Shown one piece after another: positions 14,691 to 21,534 of a DNA stretch of 23,302 nucleotides. Source of the DNA: a virus; the IMG/VR virus record IMGVR_UViG_3300025646_000390, positions 1-23,302 of that record. One strand, given 5' to 3'. Made by a program: the position numbers and the translations under genes. The notes beneath the pieces were generated by a model, which worked only from the letters and a program-made list of their open reading frames with translations, searched no databases and had not been told where the DNA came from. How positions within the stretch are numbered: position 1 is the stretch's first letter; every line of letters starts with the position of its first letter.

Positions 14691-14823
14691 AGTATCAGAA
14701 ACCATTGACAAAGCAATCTGGGAATGGTATTCTGAGCGTGGTTTAGATGTTCCTGATTGGAAATATGAAAAAGATCCTCAATGGTGGATAGATTACCTTG
14801 CAGAACTTGACAAAGAAGAATAG
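14683..14823 (+). CDS. Small Trp-rich acidic hypothetical protein
   Basis: The 46-residue protein (starting MIEVSETIDKAIWEWYSERG) is acidic with five Trp. It overlaps the previous gene by 8 bases, and GAGG (14673-14676) sits 6 bases before the ATG. Its last codons encode Leu-Asp-Lys and contain the TTGACA -35 box of the next promoter. Function unknown. Confidence 0.7.
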   Translation: MIEVSETIDKAIWEWYSERGLDVPDWKYEKDPQWWIDYLAELDKEE

Positions 14824-14835
14824 ATAGTTTATAAT
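14807..14835 (+). promoter_or_regulatory. Consensus sigma70 promoter (TTGACA-17-TATAAT)
   Basis: Both hexamers match consensus exactly: TTGACA at 14807-14812, TATAAT at 14830-14835, spacer 17 bases. The predicted start is near 14842, giving a leader of about 16 bases before the ATG at 14858. The -35 box is inside the preceding coding sequence. Confidence 0.88.
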
Positions 14836-15079: not shown

Positions 15080-15108
15080 TTGACTACATAATTTATTAAG
15101 TCTAAAAT
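15080..15108 (+). promoter_or_regulatory. Sigma70-type promoter (TTGACT-17-TAAAAT) of the micropeptide operon
   Basis: TTGACT (15080-15085) and TAAAAT (15103-15108) each match consensus at 5 of 6 positions with a 17-base spacer. Transcription would start near 15115, exactly at the first helix of the riboswitch, which supports the assignment. Confidence 0.8.
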
Positions 15109-15115
15109 GACTTTA

Positions 15116-15208
15116 CGTTCAACCAGGTAACTGGTCGCAAGTAGGACGGCGGAACGGATCGTTCATTCGCTATTCGCAAATAGCGAACGCAAACCGCCCG
15201 AAGGAACG
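15116..15208 (+). ncRNA. Glutamine riboswitch (glnA / Downstream-peptide class)
   Basis: The outer helix P1 is CGTTC (15116-15120) with GAACG (15204-15208). A hairpin ACCAG-GTAA-CTGGT (15122-15135) is followed by the conserved CGCAAGTAGG internal-loop strand (15136-15145), then helix GGCGG (15148-15152) with CCGCC (15194-15198), and the 3' conserved CGAAGGAACG (15199-15208). These are hallmarks of the glutamine-binding RNAs of cyanobacteria and their phages. Inside the third helix are two extra hairpins: GAACG/CGTTC at 15152-15164, and a 9-bp stem at 15166-15187. A ribosome binding site GGAGG (15232-15236) lies downstream, in the loop of a possible ATTTC/GAAAT hairpin, suggesting translational control of the ORF at 15245. 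Confidence 0.88.
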
Positions 15209-15244
15209 GGGCCTAAAAATCTCATTTCTTTGGAGGAAATCCCA

Positions 15245-15382
15245 ATGTCTAAAGTAGTCTATCGCGGCGTAGAATATGATACCCAGAAGCGTCTGGAGTA
15301 TCAACAACAGATGGCACAGCAACCTCAACAGTACAACGAAACATATCGTGGTGTTAAGTTCGTAAAGGAGGGTCACAAGTGA
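15245..15382 (+). CDS. Riboswitch-controlled micropeptide with two YRG motifs (DUF4278-like)
   Basis: The 45-residue peptide begins MSKVVYRGVEYD and ends ETYRGVKFVKEGHK. Two copies of Y-R-G-V-x-(Y/F) flank a Gln-rich middle; 8 of 45 residues are Gln. The YRG motif is the mark of DUF4278, a family of tiny cyanobacterial proteins, and this is the type of short ORF that follows Downstream-peptide riboswitches. GGAGG lies 8 bases before the ATG. It is net basic and probably soluble. By analogy with cyanobacterial small proteins under NtcA or glutamine control, it may bind and adjust a nitrogen-metabolism protein; this is inference. Its stop overlaps the next start. Confidence 0.82.
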   Translation: MSKVVYRGVEYDTQKRLEYQQQMAQQPQQYNETYRGVKFVKEGHK

Positions 15383-15480
15383 TGAAAAAACTCAATGTAC
15401 TTCAACTCATCAAAGAGCAGAAGCAAAAAGAGCAACGTCGTCATGAAGCACTTCTTGCAAATGCTGGAGCAGGAAAATGA
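15382..15480 (+). CDS. Basic 32-residue micropeptide
   Basis: The sequence begins MKKLNVLQLIKEQKQKEQRR and ends LLANAGAGK. It is a highly basic, probably helical peptide. The TGATG stop/start overlap with the YRG peptide and GGAGG 11 bases upstream support translation. Part of the same riboswitch-led operon; function unknown. Confidence 0.6.
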   Translation: MKKLNVLQLIKEQKQKEQRRHEALLANAGAGK

Positions 15481-15563
15481 TTCCTATGATTGCAGCTATT
15501 GCAGGCGCATCAACAGCATTCATTTATCTGATATATATTGAAGTTCTATTACTAAATAGGTAG
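15477..15563 (+). CDS. 28-residue single-helix membrane micropeptide
   Basis: The ATG overlaps the preceding stop (ATGA). The peptide is almost wholly hydrophobic (MIPMIAAIAGASTAFIYLIY, then IEVLLLNR) and would form one membrane helix. Support comes from its coupled position and its composition. Function unknown. Confidence 0.5.
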   Translation: MIPMIAAIAGASTAFIYLIYIEVLLLNR

Positions 15564-15718
15564 TGGAAAATTACCGTTATCACTATGATGATATGGACAA
15601 GGACAATAGAGGTCCTGCTTGTTATCTTTTAACATATCGTGGATGTAAATATTGGTCTTGCTATCGTATTCATCTAGTGGAATGGTTTGAAAAAATGTTT
15701 AAATCTGAGGGGTCTTGA
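15563..15718 (+). CDS. Micropeptide with YRG motif (DUF4278-like), GTG start
   Basis: The 51-residue reading begins at GTG 15563, whose G is shared with the preceding TAG; an internal ATG at 15593 is an alternative. The middle reads ACYLLTYRGCKYWSCYRIHL, with the Y-R-G-x-x-Y motif of DUF4278 and three Cys, then a hydrophobic/charged helix (VEWFEKMF). It is the last gene of the riboswitch operon, and its 3' end forms the terminator stem. The TGA stop lies inside the TTGACA box of the next promoter. Confidence 0.65.
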   Translation: MENYRYHYDDMDKDNRGPACYLLTYRGCKYWSCYRIHLVEWFEKMFKSEGS

Positions 15719-15734
15719 CACTCCTCTTTTTTTT
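15707..15734 (+). terminator. Rho-independent terminator of the micropeptide operon
   Basis: A 7-bp stem GAGGGGT/ACTCCTC (one G-U pair) with a 6-base loop is followed by eight T. The 5' arm lies in the last codons of the 51-residue peptide gene. Confidence 0.88.
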
Positions 15735-15743
15735 AACTATAAT
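15715..15743 (+). promoter_or_regulatory. Consensus sigma70 promoter overlapping a terminator (TTGACA-17-TATAAT)
   Basis: TTGACA (15715-15720) lies in the terminator loop and stem, and the T-tract forms part of the 17-base spacer before TATAAT (15738-15743). Both boxes match consensus fully. Transcription would start near 15750, before the ATG at 15766. Confidence 0.88.
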
Positions 15744-20766: not shown

Positions 20767-21534
20767 ATGAAACTCAAAGAGTATCATTATGTCTATTATT
20801 CCTATGAGGAATACGGTAGAGGATATATTGGATCAAGAACTTGTAAGTGCTTACCAGAAAAAGATATAAAGTATTTTGGTTCTTTTAAGGACAAAAGTTT
20901 TAAACCAACTCAAAAGATAATTCTAAAAACTTATGCTACAAGAGAGGAGGCATATGTTAATGAAATTATCTTACAAGAATATTATAAAGTAGTAGAAAAT
21001 CCTTATTTTGCTAACAAAGCATACCAAACTTCTACTGGATTTAGTAGGAAAGGTATGATTCCTCATAATAAAGGAAAAAAAATGTCTTTGGAACAAAGAA
21101 AAAAGTTGAGTGATGTTTGTAAAGGAAGAAAAATAAGTGAGGAAACTAAAAATAAGTTAAGTAAAAAACTCAAAGGGAGGATTTTAACCGAAGAACATAA
21201 AGTAAAAATTGCAAACTCAAATCGAGGTAAATCAAAAACTATAACAGAAAAAAGAAAACAAGCAGATATTCAAAGAGGATTAACATTAAAAGGAAGACTT
21301 GTAGGAGATAAAAATCCAACAAAAAGACTAGAAGTTAGAGAAAAAATTAGCAATTCCTGTAAAGGAAGAATACCTTGGAATAAAGGAAAATCTGCACCAG
21401 AAATCTTAGGAGCAAAACATCCAAAAGCAAAAAGAATTGAATTTGAAGGAATTATTTACGGTTGTGTAAAAGATGCTTTAAATGCTACTGGAAGATCGAA
21501 ATATTATATCCAAAAGTATTCCACTTATCTTTAA
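20767..21534 (+). CDS. GIY-YIG homing endonuclease with NUMOD motifs
   Basis: The 255-residue protein has an N-terminal GIY-YIG catalytic domain: YVYYSYEEYGRGYIGSR (8-24) carries the VYY...YIG pair and the following Arg, and a later Glu (AYVNEIILQEYY, Glu66 or Glu71) is the likely metal ligand. Residues about 95-220 contain several NUMOD3 DNA-binding repeats (HNKGKKMS, CKGRKISEETKNKLS, LKGRILTEEHKVKI, WNKGKSA). The C-terminus ends in a NUMOD1-like helix-turn-helix (GCVKDALNATGRSKYYIQKY). Such enzymes cut gene copies lacking them and spread between phages. It is free-standing, between gp32 and the baseplate genes. Lys-rich composition and its position suggest recent gain. Confidence 0.92.
   Translation: MKLKEYHYVYYSYEEYGRGYIGSRTCKCLPEKDIKYFGSFKDKSFKPTQKIILKTYATREEAYVNEIILQEYYKVVENPYFANKAYQTSTGFSRKGMIPHNKGKKMSLEQRKKLSDVCKGRKISEETKNKLSKKLKGRILTEEHKVKIANSNRGKSKTITEKRKQADIQRGLTLKGRLVGDKNPTKRLEVREKISNSCKGRIPWNKGKSAPEILGAKHPKAKRIEFEGIIYGCVKDALNATGRSKYYIQKYSTYL

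Follow-up and report, generated by a model that had tools for sequence, protein, structure and literature searches.

A probable glutamine riboswitch with an interlocked second junction at the head of a cyanophage micropeptide operon

Does a cyanophage read the glutamine of its host, and why would its aptamer carry two hairpins more than the known one? The question is raised by a locus in the stretch of viral DNA analysed here, which is 23,302 nucleotides in length and is called the window below. The window covers part of the genome of a T4-like cyanophage, which infects cyanobacteria of the ocean or of lakes. It carries the T4-like cyanophage markers SpeD, ThyX, PhoH and gp32, and the gene order speD-riboswitch-td-PhoH is as in Synechococcus phage S-PM2. 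An ORF adjoining gp32 (20767-21534) resembles a GIY-YIG/NUMOD homing endonuclease, judging from the look of the sequence. A sequence-only reading had proposed a glutamine riboswitch of the cyanobacterial class in control of a phage micropeptide operon. Its coordinates hold: P1 begins at 15116 and the ATG of the peptide lies at 15245. When the whole window was searched with cmscan, the sole match above cut-off was RF01739 (Glutamine) at 15114-15212 on the plus strand, with 40.2 bits against a gathering cut-off of 35 (E=1.1e-5) over the full model (1-53). The strands CGCAAGTAGG (15136-15145) and CGAAGGAACG (15199-15208), the helices CGTTC/GAACG and ACCAG/CTGGT, and two inserted hairpins (15152-15164 and 15166-15187) were all found where that reading had put them. 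Thus, P1, P2, P3 and the conserved CGnAAGUA and GAAGGAACG strands are all in position, and the assignment to the glutamine aptamer class stands. In the base numbering of the construct of PMC5393176, C15138 and G15209 can form the tertiary 23-60 pair; position 23 is a C here and a G in most cellular aptamers. The RF01739 alignment treats a stretch of 52 nt as an insert in P3. A local search with RF01704 (Glutamine-II) gave 23.1 bits on 15157-15211, which is the second half only and below the cut-off of 33. It was this sub-threshold match that first suggested a resemblance between the insert and part of a glutamine aptamer. Judged by its sequence, the window element is a real riboswitch of the known glutamine kind in a new structural variant, and family membership points to glutamine as its ligand.

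What are the two additional hairpins? As read from the pairing pattern, they are a second, circularly permuted aptamer-like junction that has P3 in common with the first one. Comparison with relatives shows that the canonical aptamer (P1, P2, P3) bears this second junction (P4, P5) on the far end of P3. P4 is a P1-like helix capped by a loop, and P5 is the counterpart of P2 and is followed by CGCAA. The features are listed in Table 1.

Table 1. Predicted elements of the riboswitch and its operon in the window
Feature	Position	Strand	Remark
Sigma-70-like promoter TTGACT-17-TAAAAT, 10/12	15080..15108	+	RNA start expected at about 15115, at the aptamer
P1 5' strand CGTTC, partner 15204-15208	15116..15120	+	RF01739 alignment; RNAalifold consensus
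P2 hairpin ACCAG-GTAA-CTGGT	15122..15135	+	RF01739 alignment; all five pairs covary
Junction J2/3 CGCAAGTA	15136..15143	+	C15138 is the position-23 linchpin base, expected partner G15209
P3 5' strand GGACGG, long-range	15144..15149	+	Partner 15194-15199, one A.C mismatch
P4 hairpin GAACG-GAT-CGTTC	15152..15164	+	Belongs to the inner, circularly permuted junction as its P1-like helix; inner position 60 is G15157
P5 hairpin TTCGCTATTCGCAAATAGCGAA	15166..15187	+	P2-like arm of the inner junction
Inner junction CGCAA	15188..15192	+	C15190 is the inner position-23 base
P3 3' strand CCGCCC	15194..15199	+	P3 comparison and covariation in relatives
Conserved 3' strand GAAG, P1 3' strand GAACG (15204-15208) and linchpin G15209	15200..15209	+	
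Shine-Dalgarno GGAGG of ORF1, the first regulated ORF	15232..15236	+	Direct reading
ORF1, 45-aa YRG-motif micropeptide, DUF4278-like, phrog_5049	15245..15382	+	
ORF2, 32 aa, weak phrog_545, start overlaps ORF1 stop (ATGA)	15382..15480	+	
ORF3, 28 aa, hydrophobic, start overlaps ORF2 stop	15477..15563	+	
ORF4, 51 aa, GTG start, YRG motif (LTYRGCKYW)	15563..15718	+	
Terminator-like hairpin and T run, end of operon	15707..15734	+	

Phage relatives were gathered by DNA similarity and by six IMG/VR pattern scans with different anchors. After removal of duplicates, at least 216 distinct interlocked elements were found in phage contigs, including the window (L394). They share the order CGTTCA-P2-CGnAAGTA-x-GGAACG-loop-CGTTCA-P5-CGCAA-x'-GAAGGAACG, where the x/x' pairs are AGTCG/CGACT, GGACGG/CCGCCC, AGCCGACN/N'GCCGACT, CGCCGACTC/AAGCCGACG and AGACAACTC/AAGTTGACT. 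Since x and x' pair, P3 joins both halves. Among 80 elements with AGCCGACN/N'GCCGACT, N/N' (at x8) is T/A in 48, G/C in 17 and A/T in 13. The nested pairing of P3 shows double changes from A-U to G-C and C-G. The GGCGG/CCGCC helix of the sequence-only reading is possible at 15148-15152/15194-15198, but the relatives favour GGACGG/CCGCCC, which leaves the first G of P4 free, unlike the former register.

The solved structure of the aptamer with glutamine bound has base 23 inserted in P1 and paired with base 60 (PMC11477058). Under the interlocked reading, this outer linchpin is compatible in 216 of the 216 elements (C-G in 179, G-C in 37), and it is kept in all 113 long forms, where an ORF separates the partners. 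The inner linchpin is C-G in 211, G-C in two (swapped in L216 and L351) and C.A in three. Both junctions thus keep the tertiary 23-60 pair through compensating changes. P4 is compensated to CAACG/CGTTG in L206, L425 and L466. When an alignment of 42 natural sequences was given to RNAalifold with no structure supplied, the interlocked P1 was chosen together with P2, P4 and P5. In the named interlocked structure, 94.5% of the cells are paired versus 83.2% in shuffles, and the covariation score is 0.272 versus 0.080 (0/500 shuffles), counts that overstate the significance because the elements are related sequences. Sliding the structure along the alignment abolishes the signal. The covariation in related phages that the sequence-only reading called for is present, as P2, P3, P4 and the linchpin pairs covary or are compensated; P1 is invariant in the sample, partly because it belonged to the search patterns used for retrieval. 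When the window RNA is folded alone by minimum energy, P1 does not form, and the window fold is only modestly stable (z -2.0).

In some elements a 22-nt palindrome, TTCGCTATTnGCnAATAGCGAA (window 15166-15187), caps P2, in others P5, which suggests exchange between the two halves. I also asked whether the TTCGCTATT..AATAGCGAA palindrome is a mobile repeat in its own right. This was rejected: the copies listed outside the parsed elements are reverse complements of riboswitch hairpins or belong to unparsed elements.

Could the locus be read as two independent glutamine aptamers in tandem, each CGTTC pairing with the next GAACG, with the response made more digital, as in the tandem glnA RNAs already known? 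Each unit would comprise a pair like P1, a hairpin like P2 and CGCAA, P1 pairs in every sequence under both assignments, and glnA tandems have been described (PMC2864571), with true tandems in marine bacteria. On the helices that both structures have in common, the tandem structure scores like the interlocked one. At each linchpin, however, it reaches 81% versus 100%, and the bases are incompatible in 38 (unit 1) and 37 (unit 2) of the 216 elements, versus none when interlocked. The P3 strands covary between the units and not within them, and in nearly all interlocked elements of phages the conserved GAA is missing from the first GAACG, though it is retained in true bacterial tandems. On these grounds, two complete aptamers in series were rejected, and the tandem reading is very unlikely. 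It is also improbable that a single ordinary aptamer carries functionless hairpins in its P3 arm. The Rfam alignment, one aptamer plus an insert, agrees with such a view, and loop 3 was replaced in the crystallised construct, so P3 tolerates change. But CGTTCA, CGCAA, the P1-like helix and the inner 23-60 pair are kept across 216 distinct elements, and the compensating changes in P4 (L206, L425, L466) and in the inner linchpin (L216, L351) are not expected of free filler.

The sequence-only reading had supposed that the second CGTTC/GAACG pair competes with P1. The strands could indeed swap, but conservation and the covarying linchpins favour both pairs being formed together, as P1 and P4. A strand-exchange switch, in which four P1-type strands re-pair between interlocked and tandem arrangements of equal energy and the ligand selects one, comes near to this idea. 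The two CGTTC and the two GAACG strands are identical, so the number of P1-type pairs is the same either way. However, both linchpins together with P3 form in the interlocked arrangement alone, and the three elements with CAACG/CGTTG in P4 persist though full exchange with P1 is impossible in them; such a switch is rather unlikely. Might the element bind something other than glutamine? The C at position 23, beside the ligand, would fit a shifted specificity, but glutamine-binding type-2 riboswitches have the same C and G (RF01704 consensus CGCA..GGAACGG; binding, PMC6316151), G22 and the conserved loop strands are kept, and the gene partner is of the usual DUF4278 type. A change of ligand is highly improbable.

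Is the interlocked glutamine riboswitch common in phages and in bacteria? A pattern independent of the second half was used to sort interlocked from ordinary elements. Among the matches listed, the phage loci comprise 117 interlocked and 26 ordinary elements, a ratio biased upwards because the loci include contigs from the interlocked-specific scan. In bacterial genome contigs, the matches listed include 111 ordinary elements, all with GAA before GGAACG, and one interlocked element (L316), whose contig is phage-like as judged from neighbouring proteins. In 386 sampled cyanobacterial genomes, nine ordinary matches and no interlocked element were found among the matches listed. True tandem glutamine aptamers, about 18 nt apart, occur in L230, L232, L241, L264 and other SAR116, SAR86 and alphaproteobacterial contigs, that is, in marine Alpha- and Gammaproteobacteria, outside cyanobacteria.

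Where does the transcript start? The -10 box of the promoter-like site in the window ends seven bases 5' of P1. One site of the TTGACT-17-TAAAAT type has no significance by itself. In the relatives, a promoter-like site of at least 9/12 lies upstream of 166 of 211 elements, versus 37 in shuffled sequence, and its -10 box ends 7-10 nt 5' of CGTTC in 144 of the 166. Since these sites recur at this spacing, the RNA very probably starts at the aptamer. Two perfect promoters (12/12) were also seen in the window, at 14807-14835 and at 15715-15743. The latter serves the next small ORF, and the loop of the operon-closing hairpin (15707-15734) holds part of its TTGACA -35 box.

ORF1 to ORF4 are chained start-to-stop as a coupled micro-ORF operon with a terminator-like hairpin after it. 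A protein of Synechococcus phage DSL-LC02 shares 95.6% identity with ORF1. Against DUF4278 (PF14105), it scores 19.7 bits (E=0.0011), below the curated cut-off of 25.3, and its relatives score up to 24.4 bits. ORF1 is thus DUF4278-like and no formal member of DUF4278. PirA was considered as its identity and rejected, as the Pfam match, below cut-off, is to DUF4278, and marine picocyanobacteria have no PirA (PMC8092223). A downstream ORF was identifiable in 203 of the 216 collected elements. In 150 of these ORFs, a script located a YRG-type motif among the first 20 residues; of the remaining 53, every example printed has the motif further in. In cyanobacteria, aptamers of this type mainly precede DUF4278 genes, and in the glutamine-synthetase inactivating factor IF17 the DUF4278 domain covers the N-terminal part (PMC6316151). 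Since the phage ORFs are YRG/DUF4278-like and DUF4278 is the cyanobacterial partner, the phage has the switch-gene pairing of its host group in a rebuilt form. The proposed control of a micropeptide operon is borne out by this context, with a promoter-like site at the aptamer and a DUF4278-like micropeptide in a coupled operon downstream.

I found that many relatives enclose a gene inside the switch. P5 is at most 43 nt in 103 of the 216 elements (short form, including the window) and 138-211 nt with an ORF in its loop in the other 113 (long form). The embedded ORF is whole, of about 50-65 codons, with its ATG in the 5' arm of the P5 hairpin stem. Its stop codon is the UGA in CUGAAGGAACG, within the 3' strand of the aptamer consensus, in 103 of the 113, and the P5 lengths track the reading frame of each P3 class. 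Substitutions by codon position (31/14/56% in 25 independent pairs) are as expected for coding sequence. The P5 arms pair across the ORF in 310 of 348 cells, versus 236 +/- 8 in shuffles; the arm types include TCCCA/TGGGA, TCTAT/ATAGA, CCCCA/TGGGG and GATTATG/CATAATC. The P4 loop is most often GAG in long forms, which yields a GGAG ribosome-binding site; in short forms it is mostly GAT or GAA. The embedded proteins are phrog_504 and phrog_13397 and have no match in Pfam. Their N-terminus is hydrophobic, two cysteines are conserved, and the tail, DAND or DAKAD, is encoded by the 3' half of the aptamer itself; the family (e.g. L008:1605-1772) is possibly an exported helical hairpin.

Long forms of isolates lie in L668 (P-SSM2, AY939844.2) at 1253-1475, L008 (S-SM2) at 1552-1780 and L003 (DSL-LC02) at 1267-1479, with enclosed ORFs of roughly 50 codons. 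The embedded ORF of Prochlorococcus phage P-SSM2 is unannotated and ends with UAA. Inserts of 100-800 nt with an altered P4 (e.g. GGAACGGAGCGTAAGC or GGAACGGAATGCCTA) were seen in L011 (S-B43; 1537-2384), L407, L360, L480 and L567; these are possibly further inserted genes.

How might the switch work? It is likely that the element is a type-1 (glnA, RF01739) glutamine riboswitch with an interlocked fold that heads a phage mRNA encoding coupled micropeptides. Host glutamine would bind the outer junction, base 23 (C15138) would be inserted against base 60 (G15209), and the stabilised P1 would alter ribosome access to the micropeptide operon. The inner junction may be either a stiffener of P3 or a second, weaker sensor. 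In the tested cyanobacterial switches, expression is activated upon glutamine binding (PMC6316151), and by homology with them translation is most likely ON at high glutamine. A crude calculation of Shine-Dalgarno accessibility gave no ON signal, and the window leaned the opposite way. In the G-C linchpin class, 32 of 36 elements have a 7-nt CUCUUUA that is the complement of the Shine-Dalgarno UAAGGAG; since it starts at base 60, this base could serve both the ligand-bound pair and an anti-SD helix there. Consistent anti-SD pairing was looked for in the C-G class of the window and was not found. A general anti-SD element beside P1 was thus rejected, being clear in the G-C class only.

Where a relative has a long P5, folding of the aptamer would also mask the ATG of the enclosed ORF, which would put the two genes under opposite control. 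A bolder proposal, which I regard as tentative and rather doubtful, is a two-site switch of two head-to-head aptamers sharing one helix, half of whose lineage encloses a gene with its start buried in an aptamer helix and its stop in the ligand-binding consensus; a single metabolite would then regulate the embedded and downstream genes oppositely. With a gene inside the sensor, translation and ligand sensing should exclude each other. The window's own switch may tie phage infection to the nitrogen state of the host via peptides resembling the N-terminal part of IF17, the cyanobacterial glutamine-synthetase inactivating factor. Phage riboswitches are rarely examined, the interlocked one appears widespread in T4-like cyanophages, and the cultured phages P-SSM2, S-SM2 and S-PM2 allow direct testing.

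The presence of a glnA riboswitch in a cyanophage is already known; the interlocked second junction is new. Glutamine riboswitches have been reported in other marine phages (PMC9004378), and for Synechococcus phage S-CREM1 a glnA RNA is listed at 44.0 bits, as one cis-regulatory RNA in a table (PMC9964418). S-CREM1 belongs to the same phage group and carries the same element in its short interlocked form, but the double architecture and the gene partner are not mentioned in that report. In the open-access papers searched, neither the interlocked architecture nor a conserved gene enclosed in it was found described, and one precedent was found for a translated short ORF within an aptamer, metE.

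The window element resembles type-1 glnA RNAs (RF01739) in its P1/P2/P3 topology, its CGnAAGUA and GAAGGAACG strands, its 23-60 pair, its promoter-proximal place and its DUF4278 partner. Unlike in them, a second, permuted aptamer-like junction caps an extended P3, and the 23-60 pair, usually G-C in type 1, is usually C-G in the phage interlocked elements. The type-2 Downstream-peptide motif (RF01704) likewise has C at 23 and G at 60 and precedes short ORFs in marine picocyanobacteria, but the window scores below the cut-off of that model and the P3 region differs. Tandem glnA RNAs also have two aptamer-like units in a row. Each unit is complete there, whereas in the phage the conserved parts are divided between interlocked halves, and doubling of an aptamer by circular permutation around a shared helix differs from the known tandem designs. 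In the Mycobacterium tuberculosis metE B12 riboswitch, a translated 48-nt uORF within the aptamer affects the downstream gene (PMC11260477). The phage relatives likewise have a short ORF inside the aptamer, but there a conserved family of 49-66 aa fills the loop of a helix and has its stop codon in the aptamer consensus.
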